Shown here: positions 42,443 to 50,175 of the stretch, piece by piece | Position numbering within the stretch: position 1 is the stretch's first letter | Layout of the letters: every line of letters begins with the position of its first letter | From: Actinomyces sp. S6-Spd3 | GTDB taxonomy: Bacteria; Actinomycetota; Actinomycetes; Actinomycetales; Actinomycetaceae | NCBI RefSeq assembly: GCF_000758755.1 | Contig: NZ_JRMV01000272.1 | Location: 124,001 to 188,000 of the forward strand | Direction: 5' to 3' | Length of the DNA: 64,000 nucleotides | Made by a program: the position numbers and the translations under genes | Notes under the pieces: model-generated | The model's input: only the letters and a program-made list of their open reading frames with translations | The model's database searches: none | What the model was told of the DNA's origin: nothing

Positions 42443-42471
42443 TTGACCGGACGAATACGTATTCGCTTAAT
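42443..42471 (+). promoter_or_regulatory. Predicted lacI promoter
   Basis: TTGACC (42443-42448) and CTTAAT (42466-42471) are separated by exactly 17 bases, and that spacer contains the perfect operator palindrome at 42452-42465. This would make the regulator self-repressing. Confidence 0.6.
42452..42465. promoter_or_regulatory. LacI operator 1 (perfect palindrome)
   Basis: CGAATACGTATTCG is a perfect 14-bp palindrome with the central CG dinucleotide typical of LacI family sites, 22 bases before the GH31 start and 157 bases before the lacI start. Confidence 0.82.
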
Positions 42472-42507
42472 GACAATTTTCAGGAGTTTTTCTGGTATTG
42501 TTCATTA

Positions 42508-42521
42508 CGCATACGTATTCG
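42508..42521. promoter_or_regulatory. LacI operator 2
   Basis: CGCATACGTATTCG differs from operator 1 at one position. Centres are 56 bases apart, a spacing compatible with cooperative binding. Confidence 0.78.
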
Positions 42522-42622: not shown

Positions 42623-43723
42623 ATGGCGCGTCAGCCAACCAGCAGAGACGTTGCAAAACTAGCGGGAGTCTCGCAAACCACGGTCTCGTATGTCATGAGT
42701 GGACGCCGAGCCGTCTCCCCCGAGACGGAAAAGCGTGTCCAAATTGCAATGAAAGAGCTGGGGTATCAGCCCCATGCGGGTGCCCGGTCCTTGCGTTCGC
42801 GAAAGTCTCGCGTCCTGGGAGTAGTGGTCCCCTACCACGAGGGTGCGGACGCGGCGGCCCAGCACTACATGCTGATCACTCTGGCGCAGCTCTTGCGCGA
42901 ACACGATTTTGACCTGCTGCTGATCACCGCCGACGAGGGCGCTGCGGGGCTTCGTCGAGTCATGCAGACCGCGCTGTGCGACGGCCTGTTCATCATGGAG
43001 GTGCGCTTCAATGATGCTCGTTTGGGCGTCGTTGCAGAGAGCAAGATCCCCACTGTTTTCATTGGAACCCCGGGGTCTGGGCCTTTTAATGCACCGGTCC
43101 AGTCCATCGACGTTGATTATTACGAGGCCGGGCACGCCGCGGTCCACCGCCTGCGTGACGCGGGAGCGCGCAACATTGCTTTCGTCCATTCGGCAAGCCC
43201 CGATGTGCAATCGTTGAACTTCGTCTCGCAGTTCAGGCAGGCGGTTGTTGATACTGCGGGCGAGTCGGGGATTCCTTTGCTCTCGCGTACATGCGGGACG
43301 GGAATCCGTGAGATCCGTAAGCTCGTTGGGCAAATTGCCGGTGATAACCGGATTGATTCCTACGTTTTGGGGCCGACGATTTCTGCGGATGACTGGTGCA
43401 ATGCCCTGATTGACCTGGGGATTCGTCCTGGCCGCGATGTCTCACTGGTAGCCAGCGGCTGGTCTGCCGAGCGCGCGCACTGCCTATTCGATGTCGATCA
43501 CTTTGATACGCGCCCCGACGAACTATTGAGGCGTGCGGTTGAAATGTTGGTCGCCCAAATTGATGGCGAGCCCCGAAAGGAAGCCGCCGCGGAAGCTGTA
43601 GCCGCCGATGCCGCGACCTCGGCAGATTCCGAGGCCAAGATCCGCCGTCCCGTGCATGGCCTGACCTTGCTTGATCCGATCTTCGTGCCTGGGAATACGG
43701 TTGTTGGTGCTGATCGGTCATAG
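42623..43723 (+). CDS. LacI family transcriptional regulator
   Basis: A 366-residue regulator: HTH SRDVAKLAGVSQTTVSYVMSGRRAVSPET (residues about 7-36), hinge helix ARSLRSRKSRVLGVVVPY, then a periplasmic-binding-like effector domain. Near the end an Ala-rich insertion (EAAAEAVAADAATSADSEA) precedes RRPVHGLTLLDPIFVPGNT, which closes the family fold. Divergent from the GH31-transporter operon with two operators between. Probably represses dextran/isomaltooligosaccharide use until an oligosaccharide binds. Confidence 0.93.
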   Translation: MARQPTSRDVAKLAGVSQTTVSYVMSGRRAVSPETEKRVQIAMKELGYQPHAGARSLRSRKSRVLGVVVPYHEGADAAAQHYMLITLAQLLREHDFDLLLITADEGAAGLRRVMQTALCDGLFIMEVRFNDARLGVVAESKIPTVFIGTPGSGPFNAPVQSIDVDYYEAGHAAVHRLRDAGARNIAFVHSASPDVQSLNFVSQFRQAVVDTAGESGIPLLSRTCGTGIREIRKLVGQIAGDNRIDSYVLGPTISADDWCNALIDLGIRPGRDVSLVASGWSAERAHCLFDVDHFDTRPDELLRRAVEMLVAQIDGEPRKEAAAEAVAADAATSADSEAKIRRPVHGLTLLDPIFVPGNTVVGADRS

Positions 43724-43788
43724 CGTGAGGCCGTCTTTGGCCTTCAGTTTTTCTTTCGTAGATGCCGAAAAGTGCCAAAAATAGCGTT

Positions 43789-43821
43789 CGGGGCTCCGAA
43801 TTTTAATCGTTCGAAGCCCCG
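43789..43821. terminator. Hairpin between lacI and the CRISPR array
   Basis: CGGGGCTCCGAA (43789-43800) pairs with TTCGAAGCCCCG (43810-43821) with one G-T. On the minus strand it is followed by CGCTATTTTT, so it would end leftward transcription of the CRISPR array; on the plus strand it ends lacI. Confidence 0.8.
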
Positions 43822-43920
43822 AAAACCTTGCTATTCCACGGGAAAACCAATCCTCTGAAGTCTATCAAGAGGATTGGTAACTGATTCCCAACGTGAAATG
43901 GTTTGCGCTTCGGGACGATA
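43789..43920 (-). ncRNA. Predicted single-guide-like RNA: last spacer, repeat and fused anti-repeat
   Basis: Read on the minus strand, spacer 43920-43893 is followed by repeat 43892-43857 and then, without any spacer, by AGAGGATTGGTTTTCCC (43856-43840). This segment pairs with ACCAATCCTCT and GGGAA of that same repeat, leaving a loop TGATAGACTTC and a small internal bulge. GTGGAATAGCAAGG follows, then the terminator hairpin 43821-43789. So spacer, repeat and anti-repeat would be joined in one RNA. Whether Cas9 uses it is untested; it could equally be a leader feature for spacer integration. Confidence 0.45.
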
Positions 43921-45281
43921 GAAGTCTATCAAGAGGATTGGTAACTGATTCCCAACATCGCTGTCAACATTAGGAGTGTTGAAAGAAGTCTATCAAGAGG
44001 ATTGGTAACTGATTCCCAACAGTCACAAACATGTATTTTGGGCACATGGAAGTCTATCAAGAGGATTGGTAACTGATTCCCAACCGCGCCGACGCCTTGC
44101 ATAGCCGCTGAGGAAGTCTATCAAGAGGATTGGTAACTGATTCCCAACCTGATATGGAACAGTTGAACAGCCTTGTGAAGTCTATCAAGAGGATTGGTAA
44201 CTGATTCCCAACGGACGGAACGCACATCGTTTACACTCGCGAAGTCTATCAAGAGGATTGGTAACTGATTCCCAACCCAGCGTCACGGTCTTGTTCTCGG
44301 TGGTGAAGTCTATCAAGAGGATTGGTAACTGATTCCCAACCCGGCGAGTATAGCGAGTACAGCTGTGAGAAGTCTATCAAGAGGATTGGTAACTGATTCC
44401 CAACCTGTCGAGCTTCCAGCGCCTGCCAGGCGGAAGTCTATCAAGAGGATTGGTAACTGATTCCCAACTCCAGTAAGGACGATGCTGGGGACGTTAAGAA
44501 GTCTATCAAGAGGATTGGTAACTGATTCCCAACAATGGTCTCGCGTTCGCGAGATGTTCCCGAAGTCTATCAAGAGGATTGGTAACTGATTCCCAACATC
44601 TCAGCCGTAGCCGGAAGAATCTTAAGAAGTCTATCAAGAGGATTGGTAACTGATTCCCAACAATTAAGCTGCATATCGTCCTCAATATTGAAGTCTATCA
44701 AGAGGATTGGTAACTGATTCCCAACAATCGTGACAGATTTGCGTGATCTTTCCGAAGTCTATCAAGAGGATTGGTAACTGATTCCCAACTGATCCCGCCT
44801 GCATCCATATGGAATGAGAAGTCTATCAAGAGGATTGGTAACTGATTCCCAACCCAAGTCCTCGGCGGACGGTATCGCTTCGGAAGTCTATCAAGAGGAT
44901 TGGTAACTGATTCCCAACCCGGCGGGATGAGTAGTCAGATCAGGTCGAAGTCTATCAAGAGGATTGGTAACTGATTCCCAACATGCGGGAACGCTGGTCT
45001 CGGTTAGTTTGAAGTCTATCAAGAGGATTGGTAACTGATTCCCAACCCCATCCGAGAAGCGGTACGCCAGGATGGAAGTCTATCAAGAGGATTGGTAACT
45101 GATTCCCAACTCGTAAAGCCCGGACAGCTCCCACATAAGAAGTCTATCAAGAGGATTGGTAACTGATTCCCAACGAAGATCACCATGTCCCCCAAGCTGG
45201 TCGAAGTCTATCAAGAGGATCGGTAACTGATTCCCAACGCCTCTCCTCTTACGAGAGAGCAGCCACGAAGTCTATCAAGAG
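43857..45281 (-). CRISPR. Type II-C CRISPR array, 22 full repeats, one truncated repeat, 22 spacers
   Basis: A 36-base direct repeat (plus strand begins GAAGTCTATCAAGAGGATTG and ends CTGATTCCCAAC) starts at 43857 and recurs every 64 bases. Spacers are 28 bases, two of them 29 (44469-44497, 44854-44882). Repeats are identical except the one at 45203, with one base change (ATTGG to ATCGG). The last, at 45267-45281, keeps only 15 bases. Degeneration at the cas2 side marks the old end; new spacers are probably added at the 43857 side. By analogy with corynebacterial II-C repeats ending GATAGACTTC, crRNAs are read on the minus strand. Confidence 0.98.
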
Positions 45282-45295
45282 CAGTGATCTGTAAT

Positions 45296-45616
45296 TCAGA
45301 AGATAGTGAGCTGCTCAGGAGCCCCCTCCGTTTTCTGTTTCTTAGCCTGTTCAAAATGAAGTCCAGTTGCCCACTGACGATCCGTAATCCCGATAACTCG
45401 CACTTGACCTCCCTCTGGGAGATGAGACTGAATCTGTCGAAGAGTCGCATGGTTCTGCCCACCGCTTGGCCAGTATTTTGCATAAACACTGAACTGGACC
45501 ATTGTGAATCCCCAATCCAGCAACGCCTGTCTAAATCGCGTTGCTTCCCGCCTCTGGGCTTTTGTTTCAACTGGAAGATCAAACATGACCAGACACCACA
45601 TGGGACTATCCACCAT
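45296..45616 (-). CDS. cas2: CRISPR-associated endonuclease Cas2
   Basis: A 106-residue Cas2: LVMFDLPVETKAQRREATRFRQALLDWGF is the standard first strand with the Asp of the FDLP motif and the following helix; MVQFSVYAKY and QVRVIGITDRQW follow. Cas2 bridges two Cas1 dimers in the spacer integrase. ATG 45616 lies two bases after the cas1 stop; GTG 45625 within cas1 is an alternative. Its stop lies 14 bases from the truncated CRISPR repeat. Confidence 0.95.
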   Translation of the reverse strand: MVDSPMWCLVMFDLPVETKAQRREATRFRQALLDWGFTMVQFSVYAKYWPSGGQNHATLRQIQSHLPEGGQVRVIGITDRQWATGLHFEQAKKQKTEGAPEQLTIF

Positions 45617-45617
45617 C

Positions 45618-46529
45618 TCAACCACTCAGATCAGTGGATGCGGGTCCCTGCCATGCGGGAACTTTTAGGCGCTCTTCTTCTCCTTCAACATAACGCCCGT
45701 ATTGCTGCGCAAGATCTTGAGCAACTGCCGAAATTCCATAACCATCCGAATCGAATTTCTGTGAAGCCGCAGCAACCAATATCCGCTTCACATCACTATC
45801 TGACGGAGATGCCGTTGGAGACAATTGCAGAGCAACTTCATCAATCGCTGGACGGAAAGGTTCAATAAGATCGTCGGCAAGCGCGAAAGCGTTGCCCCTT
45901 CCACGATGAAAGACACCTAGCGCCGGAGCTAATCCGGCGGACAGCACTGCCCGAATCACGTGACCACGTAACACTGCATAGCCATAATCAAGACACGCAT
46001 TCGAACCAATGAGCTGACCAGCACCAGGCTGTCGCCCTTCACCTAGAACGCGCGACCAGTAAAAACGTGCTGCACGCGCCTCAATATTGTCGGGGTCACC
46101 TGAGCGGACTTGGTCCGCGAGTGCAAAGAGTTCGCTACTCCCTGAACGACCAAGATTCTGAAGAACGTTTGCCTGTCCCTCAATCTTTGCTCTAATGATG
46201 CGTGCCCACGCATTTTTCTTTCGAGGAAGAGTCATGTCAGCCTGAGCCCGATGTCGTGCTGCTACTCGCCCATGATCCGACCATGAATAGCAAGCCCCTT
46301 CAGGAATCCCACGCCAGTCGCAGAAAAGAACTGCAATATCCGCGTCCGCAAGCCTGTGCAGAACAGCGGCGCTGAGATCGACCTTCATCCCGATGAGAAC
46401 AACTGCAAGCTCTGCAACGGGAAGAGTAACTGGATCCTTACCCTCAGGGCATACTTCTATCCCGCCCCGTGTGGAATGAAGCGCCCCCTCAAATTCGCAG
46501 AGGTCAATCACGCGCCACTGTTCTGCCAT
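45618..46529 (-). CDS. cas1: CRISPR-associated integrase Cas1
   Basis: A 303-residue type II Cas1. The N-terminal beta domain includes VAELAVVLIGMKVDLSAAVLHRLADADIAVLFCDWRG; the helical catalytic domain has NIEARAARFYWSRVLGE (metal Glu region), SNACLDYGYAVLRGHVIRAVLSAGLAPALGVFH (catalytic His) and FALADDLIEPFRPAID (Asp). It inserts new spacers with Cas2. ATG 46529 lies three bases after the cas9 stop, so the three cas genes form one operon. Confidence 0.96.
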   Translation of the reverse strand: MAEQWRVIDLCEFEGALHSTRGGIEVCPEGKDPVTLPVAELAVVLIGMKVDLSAAVLHRLADADIAVLFCDWRGIPEGACYSWSDHGRVAARHRAQADMTLPRKKNAWARIIRAKIEGQANVLQNLGRSGSSELFALADQVRSGDPDNIEARAARFYWSRVLGEGRQPGAGQLIGSNACLDYGYAVLRGHVIRAVLSAGLAPALGVFHRGRGNAFALADDLIEPFRPAIDEVALQLSPTASPSDSDVKRILVAAASQKFDSDGYGISAVAQDLAQQYGRYVEGEEERLKVPAWQGPASTDLSG

Positions 46530-46532
46530 GAG

Positions 46533-49500
46533 CTACCTCAGCAGTTGAGTAATCGGAAGTGAATTCTGTGAATTTGAACGCGGCTCACCAAGGCAGTTCC
46601 GACGTACCACTGATACAACACCTGATGCGAGCAAGACATTAATTGCTGGTCGCCATCCTTGTCCCTCGAGTAAGTCACTGAGTTCTTTTGAAGACCCCTT
46701 TTCCAGCCCCTCAACGGACAAGAGGTAGGGACGCAAGCGCAACTTTGCGGGATCTGGGAACCCAGCAACCCTCCAGCTTGTCAACTCCGGATACTGGGCA
46801 AGCACCTCACCGACAAATCCCTTCAAGTACTTATCCGTCTCGATTTGTAGCTCATCGCCTTCAACCAACCAGCCGATCTGAGTGACGGTTCCGTCAGCTA
46901 GTGCCTTCCGAATCTTCGGCTCAGCAGTACGCATGGAAATCGTCGATGGTTTCAGCGGCGTGGTGAAGACATCTTCGTGAGTCATCTTCACCAGATCTGT
47001 AGCAAAAACACGCACCATAGCGTACGTTGTCTTCTTCCCATCGATCCGGTAAATCCGCGCGTGGTGAATTGAGCTTCCAATCTCCACATAGCCACCGCGA
47101 ACCTTCAAACAGGCAGATGGCGAATTGAAGAAGTTCAACTGCTCGTCTGCGGTGATCTTCCGACCGTGAATATAGATTTCCCGCGACGGATCTTCAGGTA
47201 ACCCCTCCTTCGGATCAAAGTCAGGAAGTCTGGTCAATGCAGTCCATAACGCAGGTGTTTCCGCGCGATCGATCATTGCGACAGACAGGGCTTCGCCAAG
47301 CTTCGCGTGAATGAACTTACGAACCGTATCGTCGTGAACCTTACTTGAACCAACGCGCAGACGAACATTCTCATGGAAAGGAATGGCATTCTTCGCGAGC
47401 TCAATATTGAAGAGTTCGACCGCGCGAAGCATTCCTTCACGCCATTGCTCAAAACGATCGCTGGCTTGACCGGGCTTCCCGTAGAAGTTCTTCCAAGTTT
47501 CTTCCTGGCCGGTGATGCGCTGTGATTCCCGCATATTGACGCGCAATGCCAAGGTTTGCGAAACAGACTGGTTCATCATCGCAATGACCAAGGCATCCAT
47601 CGCATGGTGCCTGCGATCAAAACGCGTCTTACCTTTTCCACCGATTAGATTGACACGACTTTCAAATCCCGAGGCCTTGCGCGCTTCCGCAGTCAGCTGA
47701 CCGCGATAAATACCAATGTTCGGAACCGACTCTGCTTTGAGCTTCCGGTAGAAGCCATCAATACGCGTACGGAGCTCAATCGCCATCCATGCAACGGATT
47801 CCATGGAACGTCCGTCGAACTCTTCATCCGGCTTACGCGACTTCAGGCGGGAAATCACTTCCTCACGGAAATGAGCATATTGCTTCGGACGCATAGCCGG
47901 ATCGCGTTCCCACGCACGGACTCGCTCGATTGCACCCTCTAAAGAAACACCCGCGTGCGCCTGACCCGAGGTCGCCCACACAGCGAAGGGCACTGCACCC
48001 TTTTGATGGTTACAGGTACGGCAGACAGCGGCAAGATTCGAACGCTCATTCGAAGATCCTGAATTTGCACGAGGAACAATATGATCCATTTCGGCGGTTT
48101 CAAAGCCAATCGTGGTTCCACAGTACAAGCACATCGAATTCTGACGTTGAATTGCTTGGTGCTTCACCAGAGCAGAACGGCGCGCCTTACCTGAAATTCC
48201 CAGTTGCTGGATCATCTCATCCATATTTTTCTGGTTGAGATCCTGCCGCCTCTGGCTCTCACGCAATAGCTCTCTGGCAACTTTCTCCGAACCTAAGCCG
48301 TCACGCGTGTGTTCAATGTTAATGACAACCGGTTCACCCCAGCGATCTGTAGCCATATTGAGCCAACGTGCAACCTGCTTGAGAACACGATCAACTGCGG
48401 GGTTTCCAACCGGGGCCTCGATTGGCTCGGGTTCTGGTCGCCAATCATCGTCGACATTAAAGAGCTGCTTTCGAGCAGTGTGAAGGTCCACGCCCTCAGT
48501 CAGCATCCGCTCCGTGAGCTTGCGCAAGCTATCCAAGGAATAGGCTGCTCGTCCTTGAGGAAGCTGAATTTTTTCAAGCTCTGTCTGTTCGTCTTCGGTC
48601 GCTTGTTCAAGGAGCTCTGCAACTTCATCATCGATATCGTTATCACCCGTCGAACCTCCCGAGTTCGACAGTGCATCGACCATGAATCCGCGTCGCTCAC
48701 TATCTGCGGACTTCCACCATTCCTTGAGCCACTTCACCTTTGAAGCCATGATCTTTTCGGTGGTGACATCTGTTGGCGGGAAACGCAAAGCGGGCTCTCC
48801 ATCAACTGAGGGACGCGCTGTTCCACGCAAGTCAGCGCGCTCAATACCCAAGTTATCCGCCAGATCGGCCCAAGTCACCTGCTGTTTCAGCCCCGCATCG
48901 AGAAGGAAATCTGTCAACCCGCTCAGTTCTTCGGGAGTCAGACAACGTTCCGCTCCTGCCTCACGAACACGCAGATTCGTCAGCACTGAAACAATCCTGA
49001 AGAGTTGGAAATCAGGATGCGCTTTCTCTGCACGGATGTATTTGCCCTGACCCGGGAGTTGATCGTGACCGACGAGTCCCGCAGCGCTACCCCTGGGTGA
49101 CTTTGCGAAGAAAACTCTGCGGACCAAGAGCTTAAACACATCATGGTCCAGCCGCTGCACTTCGCAGATCTTTCGGATTTCAGCGGCATTGTCGTATTGG
49201 TGAAGCTTGCCCTGGAGAATACCATCGTCTCCACGGATACCATTGCTTTCCCTGTACTTCGGATCGCTCATGTATGCGCTGATCAATTGGCCCGGCGTTG
49301 TATCTTCAGGGAACTCCCGCCCCAGCGCTTTACCGACGCGTTCATTCAGACCGCGAAGGAATTCACTGGGCTCCATCGGAGTCAGGAGCGAATCAACCTT
49401 GATATAGGGATTCCTCCACCCACGATGACGAGCCATGTGCCTGATCGCAATCGAAAGTGCTTCCAAGCGCTCAGATTCGTCCTCAATGAAGTGATCGACA

Positions 49501-49844
49501 AGCTCCGCGCGGGTATGCCACGGCTCGTAGGGATCCTCAAAATCCTCAAGATTCGGCAATGGCCAGTGCAGTTCTTCAGACAGCACACGGTCGAGCTCCG
49601 CAAGACGGCGCCTATTCTGAGCGGTTCTGCGCTGAGTCCGCCGTGCGACGCCCGCAGTGAGCTTACGGCTCTTCGCGGCCTTATTCTCATTCGGGTCAAC
49701 GCCGGCGTCGTGAATGAACACCATGGAGTTCAGCAGGCGCAGTGGCTGATCCTTGTCATCAACCTCAACCGCGCAAAAACCAATTGATTTCAAGCCGACG
49801 TCAATGCCGACACGGTAGCGAAGATCATCATTAATCTCTGTCAT
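46533..49844 (-). CDS. cas9: CRISPR-associated endonuclease Cas9, type II-C
   Basis: A 1103-residue Cas9 very close in length to Actinomyces naeslundii Cas9 (about 1101). RuvC-I: VGIDVGLKSIGF with Asp15; Arg-rich bridge helix RRTQRRTAQNRRRLAELDR (about 68-86); RuvC-II: VVINIEHTRDG with Glu511; HNH: ETAEMDHIVPRANSGSSNERSN with His588 and Asn612, flanked by zinc cysteines CLYC (572, 575) and CRTC (608, 611); RuvC-III: RFDRRHHAMDALV with His747 and Asp750. All catalytic residues are intact. The rest forms a compact PAM-interacting end. ATG 49844. With cas1, cas2 and no csn2 or cas4 this is subtype II-C. Confidence 0.98.
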   Translation of the reverse strand: MTEINDDLRYRVGIDVGLKSIGFCAVEVDDKDQPLRLLNSMVFIHDAGVDPNENKAAKSRKLTAGVARRTQRRTAQNRRRLAELDRVLSEELHWPLPNLEDFEDPYEPWHTRAELVDHFIEDESERLEALSIAIRHMARHRGWRNPYIKVDSLLTPMEPSEFLRGLNERVGKALGREFPEDTTPGQLISAYMSDPKYRESNGIRGDDGILQGKLHQYDNAAEIRKICEVQRLDHDVFKLLVRRVFFAKSPRGSAAGLVGHDQLPGQGKYIRAEKAHPDFQLFRIVSVLTNLRVREAGAERCLTPEELSGLTDFLLDAGLKQQVTWADLADNLGIERADLRGTARPSVDGEPALRFPPTDVTTEKIMASKVKWLKEWWKSADSERRGFMVDALSNSGGSTGDNDIDDEVAELLEQATEDEQTELEKIQLPQGRAAYSLDSLRKLTERMLTEGVDLHTARKQLFNVDDDWRPEPEPIEAPVGNPAVDRVLKQVARWLNMATDRWGEPVVINIEHTRDGLGSEKVARELLRESQRRQDLNQKNMDEMIQQLGISGKARRSALVKHQAIQRQNSMCLYCGTTIGFETAEMDHIVPRANSGSSNERSNLAAVCRTCNHQKGAVPFAVWATSGQAHAGVSLEGAIERVRAWERDPAMRPKQYAHFREEVISRLKSRKPDEEFDGRSMESVAWMAIELRTRIDGFYRKLKAESVPNIGIYRGQLTAEARKASGFESRVNLIGGKGKTRFDRRHHAMDALVIAMMNQSVSQTLALRVNMRESQRITGQEETWKNFYGKPGQASDRFEQWREGMLRAVELFNIELAKNAIPFHENVRLRVGSSKVHDDTVRKFIHAKLGEALSVAMIDRAETPALWTALTRLPDFDPKEGLPEDPSREIYIHGRKITADEQLNFFNSPSACLKVRGGYVEIGSSIHHARIYRIDGKKTTYAMVRVFATDLVKMTHEDVFTTPLKPSTISMRTAEPKIRKALADGTVTQIGWLVEGDELQIETDKYLKGFVGEVLAQYPELTSWRVAGFPDPAKLRLRPYLLSVEGLEKGSSKELSDLLEGQGWRPAINVLLASGVVSVVRRNCLGEPRSNSQNSLPITQLLR

Positions 49845-49948: not shown

Positions 49949-50040
49949 AAAAAAATACCGGCCCGCAGGCCGGTGGAGCAATCAGTGCCGCTAACCTGTC
50001 GGCACCTTATTGAGAATCAGTTGGCACAACTATAAGCCCT
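49949..50040 (-). ncRNA. Predicted tracrRNA
   Basis: Read leftward from about 50040: an anti-repeat containing AACTGATTCTCAAT (50022-50009) that pairs over 14 bases, including two G-U pairs, with the 5' end of the crRNA repeat (GTTGGGAATCAGTT); weaker pairing of GGGCTTAT with the repeat's 3' end. Then AAGG, a hairpin GTGCCG/CGGCAC (50005-50000 with 49990-49985), and a terminator ACCGGCC/GGCCGGT (49974-49957) followed by seven T. This is the standard tracrRNA layout, and it sits just upstream of cas9 in the same direction. Ends are estimates. Confidence 0.85.
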
Positions 50041-50105: not shown

Positions 50106-50175
50106 TCCTGGTTTAGCTCGTCGACTCCTGACATATGAGCGTTCATAGGCCAGGAATCTGCGAGCTAAACCAGGA
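50106..50175. repeat. Palindromic element copy B
   Basis: TCCTGGTTTAGCTCG (50106-50120) pairs exactly with 50161-50175. Inside, TCCTG pairs with CAGGA (50126-50130, 50151-50155) and TATGA with TCATA (50134-50138, 50143-50147). It resembles copy A at 36928-36997 and, like it, follows a left-reading gene's stop (pyrG). Confidence 0.8.

Follow-up and report, generated by a model that had tools for sequence, protein, structure and literature searches.

The window analysed here, 64,000 nucleotides of Actinomyces sp. S6-Spd3 (assembly GCF_000758755.1, contig NZ_JRMV01000272.1, positions 124,001 to 188,000), holds on its minus strand a type II-C CRISPR (clustered regularly interspaced short palindromic repeats) locus with cas9, cas1, cas2 and a repeat array, and the subject of this report is the cas-distal end of that array, where the last repeat on the strand of the CRISPR RNA (crRNA) is joined to an inverted partial copy of itself. 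The features concerned are the following.

43857 to 43892, minus strand: leader-proximal repeat, exact, one of 22 repeats with at most 3 mismatches
43868 to 43878, minus strand: repeat half of the dyad, nucleotides 15-25 of the crRNA repeat
43840 to 43856, minus strand: inverted partial repeat copy in the leader (AGAGGATTGGT plus TTCCC), with similar copies in relatives
43807 to 43856, plus strand, toward the array: leader of 50 nt with the ATTCCACGGGAAAA motif and the inverted copy, its length counted from a presumed vestigial TAA
43797 to 43806, plus strand: CGAATTTTAA, a T-tract plus TAA whose counterparts in relatives overlap the cas2 stop codon
43787 to 43823, minus strand: terminator-like hairpin, followed by CGCTATTTTT on the crRNA strand
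43857 to 45281, minus strand: CRISPR array, 22 full repeats and 1 truncated
45267 to 45281, minus strand: truncated trailer repeat adjoining cas2
45296 to 45625, minus strand: cas2, with its own end ATCTTCTGA and no T-tract
45618 to 46529, minus strand: cas1 of type II (TIGR03639, E 1.2e-63)
46533 to 49844, minus strand: cas9, 1103 amino acids (TIGR01865, E 2e-55)
49949 to 50024, minus strand: canonical trans-activating CRISPR RNA (tracrRNA) upstream of cas9, with anti-repeat (50022-50010), nexus and terminator

A sequence-only reading of the junction had described a repeat abutted without a spacer by an inverted part of itself, and this architecture is confirmed: the repeat at 43857-43892 is intact, there is no gap, ACCAATCCTCT at 43846-43856 is the exact inverse of AGAGGATTGGT at 43868-43878, and five further pairs join the TTCCC/GGGAA stretches at 43840-43844 and 43885-43889 around a loop (43857-43867) that contains TGATAGACTTC. 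The repeat is the last one on the crRNA strand and serves the spacer at 43893-43920, presumably the newest of the array; beyond it the same strand reads AGAGGATTGGT..TTCCC, GTGGAATAGCAAGG, hairpin and T5, with TTT after the 11-bp dyad stem. The terminal hairpin described earlier is likewise present, with 14 bp between 43787 and 43823 and the T5 a few bases beyond, of which a terminator scan flagged only a 5-bp inner hairpin in the 3' arm (43800-43787) together with the T-run, in a scan that found 4 terminator-like sites against 2.2 expected by chance. The proposed folding check, run on a 108-nt RNA of the crRNA strand, gave -46.8 kcal/mol (z -6.4), a value equalled by 0 of 200 shuffles, and the strand assumed for the crRNA also holds at the sequence level, in that the tracrRNA pairs with the repeat of that same strand. 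Since the 11-mer, expected about once per 64 kb by chance at up to one mismatch, has 24 matches in the window (22 in array repeats, one exact in the junction element, one elsewhere with a mismatch) and the 17-nt inverted element occurs, at up to 2 mismatches, a single time in the genome, the junction element is not a chance match. A scan of the window against Rfam gave no family at gathering scores, and neither phage protospacers matching the array spacers nor plasmids bearing a similar element were found. What the earlier description of the array edge got right is thus the structure; it overlooked the separate tracrRNA ahead of cas9, the truncated repeat next to cas2 and the identity of the flank as a leader.

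For comparison, a search for type II Cas1 in 213 Actinomycetaceae genomes (the family f1 is so called because it contains A. marseillensis) gave 39 matches above the cut-off including our own, and the 38 other loci were fetched. Further searches covered 394 genomes of the class (3 above the cut-off), 396 of the order (25), 189 of a second family, f50 (40), and 3 of another family (1), all overlapping sets, from which 40 more loci were fetched: 30 of the 40 f50 matches and 10 others, the 10 highest-scoring f50 matches having been left out as probable type II-A, a guess from the score. We take f50 to be Bifidobacteriaceae-like. The comparison set comprises 63 loci with one genome per species, 37 of Actinomycetaceae (including the window and L089, which is A. 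marseillensis, the sister of the window strain) and 26 of f50. Kept out of the counts were L065 (unrelated repeat type), L094, L109, L113, L116, L138 and L139 (no array) and L115 (N-masked array), and out of the Cas1 tree L141 and L142, which have no open frame of 250 amino acids; these two carry an in-frame TGA in cas1, while leader and array seem intact. Repeat borders were placed by hand in L072, L117, L123 and L126. Leader length was taken by a stop-codon rule, which left the window, L068, L079, L089 and L121 unmeasured and gave an artefact (6 nt) in L110.

In the 35 other Actinomycetaceae arrays of the same repeat type and the 26 of f50, a short leader lies between cas2 and the array in 61 of 61 loci (in cas orientation), and the repeats read GAAGTCTATCAA..CCCAGC or kin away from cas2. 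Only in the window and L089 is the array the other way round, the truncated repeat adjoining cas2 and the leader lying at the cas-distal end, and the flip of A. marseillensis is seen in an independent assembly. The cas-distal flank of the window resembles a leader in its details: it shares with relatives the length of 50 nt, the T-tract and the ATTCC..GGGAAAA motif; the window leader ATTCCACGGGAAAACCAATCCTCT before GAAGTC resembles that of L088, ATTCCAAGGGAAAATCGTCCCCCT before GAAGTC; and 50 nt ahead of the junction stands AATTTTAA, which matches the T-tract plus stop codon that end cas2 in relatives, so that the TAA at 43797-43806 would be a vestige of a cas2 end. The leader adjoins the non-degenerate end of the array, and the truncated repeats of the window and L089 lie at the opposite end; among 34 Actinomycetaceae and 25 f50 arrays of relatives, a mutated terminal repeat stands at the distal end in 21 and 7 respectively, and at the leader-proximal end in 2 and 1. 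Of the leaders that could be measured, 32 out of 33 in Actinomycetaceae are 47-51 nt long and 24 out of 25 in f50 are 50-51 nt long. A TTTT that starts at -60 to -53 is present in 31 of the 37 Actinomycetaceae loci and all 26 of f50 (57/63); the window and A. marseillensis have kept this T-tract in leaders that are flipped and non-coding, while their cas2 genes end in ATCTTCTGA. As an observation apart, the distance from the cas2 stop to the first repeat is mostly 47-51 nt across strongly diverged species (L066-L142).

From these comparisons of sequence the junction region is very probably the leader, and the predicted acquisition edge, of the type II-C array, and we are similarly confident that array and leader turned round together, as a unit, with respect to the cas operon in an ancestor of the window strain and A. 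marseillensis; such a joint inversion would account for the cas-distal position of the leader. New spacers would be expected to enter at the leader end. The window (22 spacers) and its sister (46) have 0 spacers in common, so their spacers were very likely gained after the flip. Our own first idea, that the inversion cut a terminal repeat in two and left the inverted copy behind, was rejected, as unflipped relatives also have the inverted copy.

Far from being absent in relatives, as the comparison of array edges might have found, the inverted copy reaches an ungapped dyad score of at least 14 in 54 of the 63 loci. Complementarity of each leader to its own repeat sums to 712 over 36 unique Actinomycetaceae loci against 485 with permuted repeats (sd 18.5, max 576), and to 676 over the 26 f50 loci against 451 (sd 18, max 524), the observed values being reached by 0 of 10,000 permutations in each family; 24 of the 36 and 23 of the 26 leaders have their own repeat as best or tied partner. 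These permutations leave relatedness in, part of which is removed by counting changes on the tree: summed over 12 variable pairs in 24 f50 rows, the Cas1 tree requires no fewer than 34 switches between Watson-Crick pair types. All 26 f50 loci have their dyad centre no more than 1 nt from the leader-repeat junction, and when the dyad is slid by 1-3 nt, the share of Watson-Crick pairs falls from 66% to values of 25-34%. Among Actinomycetaceae, clades differ in register, with centres at -8.5, about -1.5, 2 to 3.5 and about 5, and +5.5 in the window; hand-assigned classes of dyad centre change 11 times on the tree. On the crRNA strand, leader plus repeat folds with z below -2 in 34 of the 37 Actinomycetaceae loci and all 26 of f50 (60/63), and the leader alone in 13 of 37 and 3 of 26 (single-base shuffles of the leader, 60 each). 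In loci such as L091, L096, L097, L100 and L101 a hairpin inside the leader stands instead (leader-alone z -6 to -9.5); among the nearest relatives, L091, L096 and L097 have no inverted copy and L092 keeps it. The inverted copy is, on this comparison of leaders and repeats, an old, conserved part of the leader that covaries with the repeat in two families.

Separately, the registers -8.5 (L073, L090, L135) and +5.5 (window type) lie 28 nt of leader apart, which is the usual spacer length, and a weak second match at -8.5 is seen in the window, L074, L075, L077, L089 and L095. Beyond the two families there was no clear signal: 8 loci of other actinobacterial families gave none overall (98 against 90.3, reached by 1230 of 10,000 permutations), although L135 scores 24, and the 8 type II-C plasmid loci of other phyla that were compared, out of 49 records listed or counted, had no dyad clearly above shuffled flanks, some of them with a hairpin of their own next to the array as judged by eye, the best dyad scores being reached by 14 of 200 shuffles on the cas2 side (Persicobacter and Ilyobacter) and by 6 of 200 on the far side (Pigmentibacter); L034 yielded no array. 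A hairpin with a crRNA-strand T-run was seen by eye beside the type II-C arrays of L144, L149 and L150 from other phyla.

As to function, the reading that we tentatively place first, at somewhat less than even odds, is an array-end stem-loop that acts in crRNA-strand RNA. Because of the inverted copy, the leader-proximal repeat would be the only one able to form a stem-loop; transcripts from -10-like elements in the repeats would leave the array and enter the leader; and the stem-loop, or in some relatives the intra-leader hairpin, would cap or end them. What the sequence shows directly is the structure, its covariation, the site of the tracrRNA and the opposite orientation; transcription with its capping or termination, and the entry of new spacers at this end, are inferences. 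Of the 62 distinct repeats, 57 carry TGnTAnnnT at their 3' end as read on the crRNA strand, on which the motif has no further site; this position is in line with the repeat-borne promoters and leader-ward transcription that the portions available of two papers report for type II-C (PMC8092290, PMC12080349). The crRNA strand is slightly the more stable one (median -1.3 kcal/mol, p 0.042), and in 30 of 54 loci the stem on that strand is followed, no more than 4 nt on, by the start of a T-run of at least 3; of 5000 arm shuffles, 0 reached this association overall or in f50, and 202 did so in Actinomycetaceae. Register shifts between clades and intra-leader hairpins fit a stem-loop better than a fixed protein site, and leader hairpins that replace a lost dyad argue for selection of a stem-loop.

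A series of observations nevertheless weighs against this proposal. A plain sigma-70 scan of 43500-45700 gave 1 site where 2.4 were expected and none marking the repeats. G-U pairs in the copies are unbiased by strand (16 for the crRNA strand against 18 for its complement), where selection on the RNA of one strand should produce a bias. The T-run association is confounded, as the arms end where the A-run of the leader starts, and 24 of the 54 loci have no T-run after the stem; the likelier terminator of the window is, besides, the separate downstream hairpin. Nine of the 63 loci fall below a dyad score of 14, and L081, L093 and L098 lack a z below -2. Finally, the DNA-like features of the leader, its rigid length and its A/T tracts, are needless if RNA alone were at work.

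A close rival holds that the junction dyad and the fixed-length leader form a mark in DNA that points Cas1-Cas2 to the leader-proximal repeat, which would be recognisable because it is the only repeat with an inverted half beside it. Such a mark, which we regard as a possible though less probable explanation, agrees with the near-constant leader length in both families, with the T-tract of 57 of 63 loci and its persistence in flipped non-coding leaders, with the G-U pairs that know no strand, with the very likely gain of spacers after the flip, and with the f50 dyad centred throughout on the junction, where the first cut is expected; AAA/TTT peaks lie 10-12 bp apart in f50 and about 21 bp in Actinomycetaceae, a roughly helical spacing, without a control. 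The Cas1 of Sulfolobus prefers a leader-proximal stem-loop, according to the part of that study available, in single-stranded DNA and without sequence preference (PMC9456107). Where Actinomycetaceae have a clear dyad, however, its best centre varies between -8.5 and +5.5, which is hard to reconcile with a fixed site, and some loci have a repeat-unrelated leader hairpin instead. The earlier suggestion of a leader structure for Cas1-Cas2 integration stands as far as leader identity and the conserved, covarying copy are concerned, and the role may lie in integration or in RNA; we lean toward an RNA explanation of the dyad and a DNA explanation of the whole leader, and both may hold.

An unlikely alternative is that the copy is a mutational by-product, in which template switching at a quasipalindrome keeps matching the leader to the first repeat and covariation arises without function. 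Near-perfect arms in varied registers would suit this explanation, and template switching is documented in other settings in the text available of PMC7202029 and PMC8604942, but the constant dyad centre of f50, the near-constant leader length and the intra-leader hairpins where the dyad was lost do not. Less probable still, the -10-like element of the leader-proximal repeat may fire into the leader and yield a short second anti-repeat RNA (about 43853-43785) that pairs in trans with the 3' half of every pre-crRNA repeat, the tracrRNA taking the 5' half; if true, the repeat of these type II-C systems would be covered by two anti-repeat RNAs placed side by side.

The most improbable reading is the one first proposed, a natural single-guide RNA in which read-through from the newest spacer would give spacer, repeat, anti-repeat and tail and load Cas9 without tracrRNA, or a long-form tracrRNA: the order of parts and the strong fold of the junction RNA speak for it, and against it stand a separate tracrRNA whose anti-repeat occurs once in the genome, a main stem on nucleotides 15-25 of the crRNA repeat with only GGGAA (nucleotides 4-8) from the tracrRNA-pairing 5' part, a tail without TAAG, nexus or TGAAUGCUC, and the fact, from orientation, that the same strand in relatives continues into cas2 antisense. 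With another part of the repeat paired, no tail modules (TAAG, nexus and TGAUUGCUC-like modules are absent from the leader element as read by eye) and a tracrRNA elsewhere, identity with either RNA was rejected, and no feature was seen in the junction element that would support autoregulation by a long-form tracrRNA.

That tracrRNA, at 50024-49949, has the canonical parts anti-repeat, TAAG, nexus hairpin, TGATTGCTCC and terminator; CCAACTGATTCTCAATAAGG precedes the nexus, and the terminator has a T7 run. It pairs with about nucleotides 1-14 of the crRNA repeat, and when anti-repeat and repeat, both from the window, were joined by hand they folded into a duplex of 14 bp. A strict tracrRNA motif is found upstream of cas9 in 46 of 63 loci including the window (25/37 Actinomycetaceae, 21/26 f50); the 17 misses include short upstream stretches, and variants are visible in L074, L075, L077 and L084. 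In L069 and L083 the motif lies more than 1 kb farther upstream of cas1 than in the other loci that have it. Between pyrG and the tracrRNA, a perfect inverted repeat of 14 bp (CCTGGTTTAGCTCG) occupies 50161-50174 and 50107-50120, and elsewhere in the window a near-identical palindromic pair, ACGAATACGTATTCG at 42451-42465 and 42507-42521, lies between an alpha-glucosidase-like and a LacI-family gene and likely represents operators.

Leader-repeat hairpins are already known from other CRISPR types, and the following comparison refers to the portions of these papers that were available. In type II-A (Liao 2022, as described in PMC12080349 and PMC13187072) the leader pairs with the adjacent repeat as a hairpin, as in the window, where it is found instead at the 3' (acquisition) end and on the repeat of the newest spacer; the II-A hairpin stands at the 5' end and blocks the extra repeat, the source of an extra crRNA (ecrRNA). 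In type VI-B and relatives a leader-repeat stem-loop, assessed against scrambled leaders and by experiment, suppresses ecrRNA (PMC13187072). The window locus has a comparable stem-loop, predicted from sequence; the VI-B hairpin differs in its place on the first repeat, in Cas13, in the lack of a tracrRNA and in its function of suppressing ecrRNA. The leader-repeat stem of the loci compared here is kept across species. For type II-C, Feussner 2025 (PMC12080349) studied the region upstream of the array and reports, in the text available, no leader-type hairpin with the extra repeat. The subtype is the same, and the mutated extra repeat of that ecrRNA insulation corresponds to the truncated one beside cas2 in the window; that work, as available, dealt with the opposite array end, ahead of the extra repeat, and not the kind of junction described here. 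On the crRNA strand of the window the extra repeat is the truncated one at 45267-45281, which the leader-repeat hairpin does not cover and which has kept its -10-like end and lost its tracrRNA-pairing end; as a side observation, the loss in the truncated trailer repeats of the window and L089 follows the pattern predicted by the idea of ecrRNA avoidance in type II-C.

Type II-C leaders with acquisition at the leader end have been described (PMC6008519, PMC8092290), Flavobacterium transcribing toward the leader; unlike the window locus, they have, in the available parts of these papers, no reported inverted repeat copy, and the flip of leader and array is likewise a difference. Among the literature matches listed, as far as their text was available, no report of an inverted repeat copy in type II-C leaders was met, dedicated leader studies (Santiago-Frangos 2021, Buyukyoruk 2025) lying outside that coverage and possibly containing one. 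Leader-repeat hairpins as such are thus known from types II-A and VI, and their placement at the acquisition end in type II-C is, within limited literature coverage, apparently unreported. Tools disagree on the orientation of type II-C arrays, as stated in the accessible text of PMC12638026. The inverted copy may allow the leader end of such arrays to be recognised from sequence only.

To our knowledge, it is poorly understood by what means the adaptation proteins of type II-C systems tell the newest repeat from the others and how transcription of arrays toward cas2 comes to an end. The covarying junction stem of two actinobacterial families offers a concrete, mutable target for both questions, and the flipped array represents a natural transplant, in which the DNA travelling with the leader comprises the T-tract, about 50 nt and the inverted copy.
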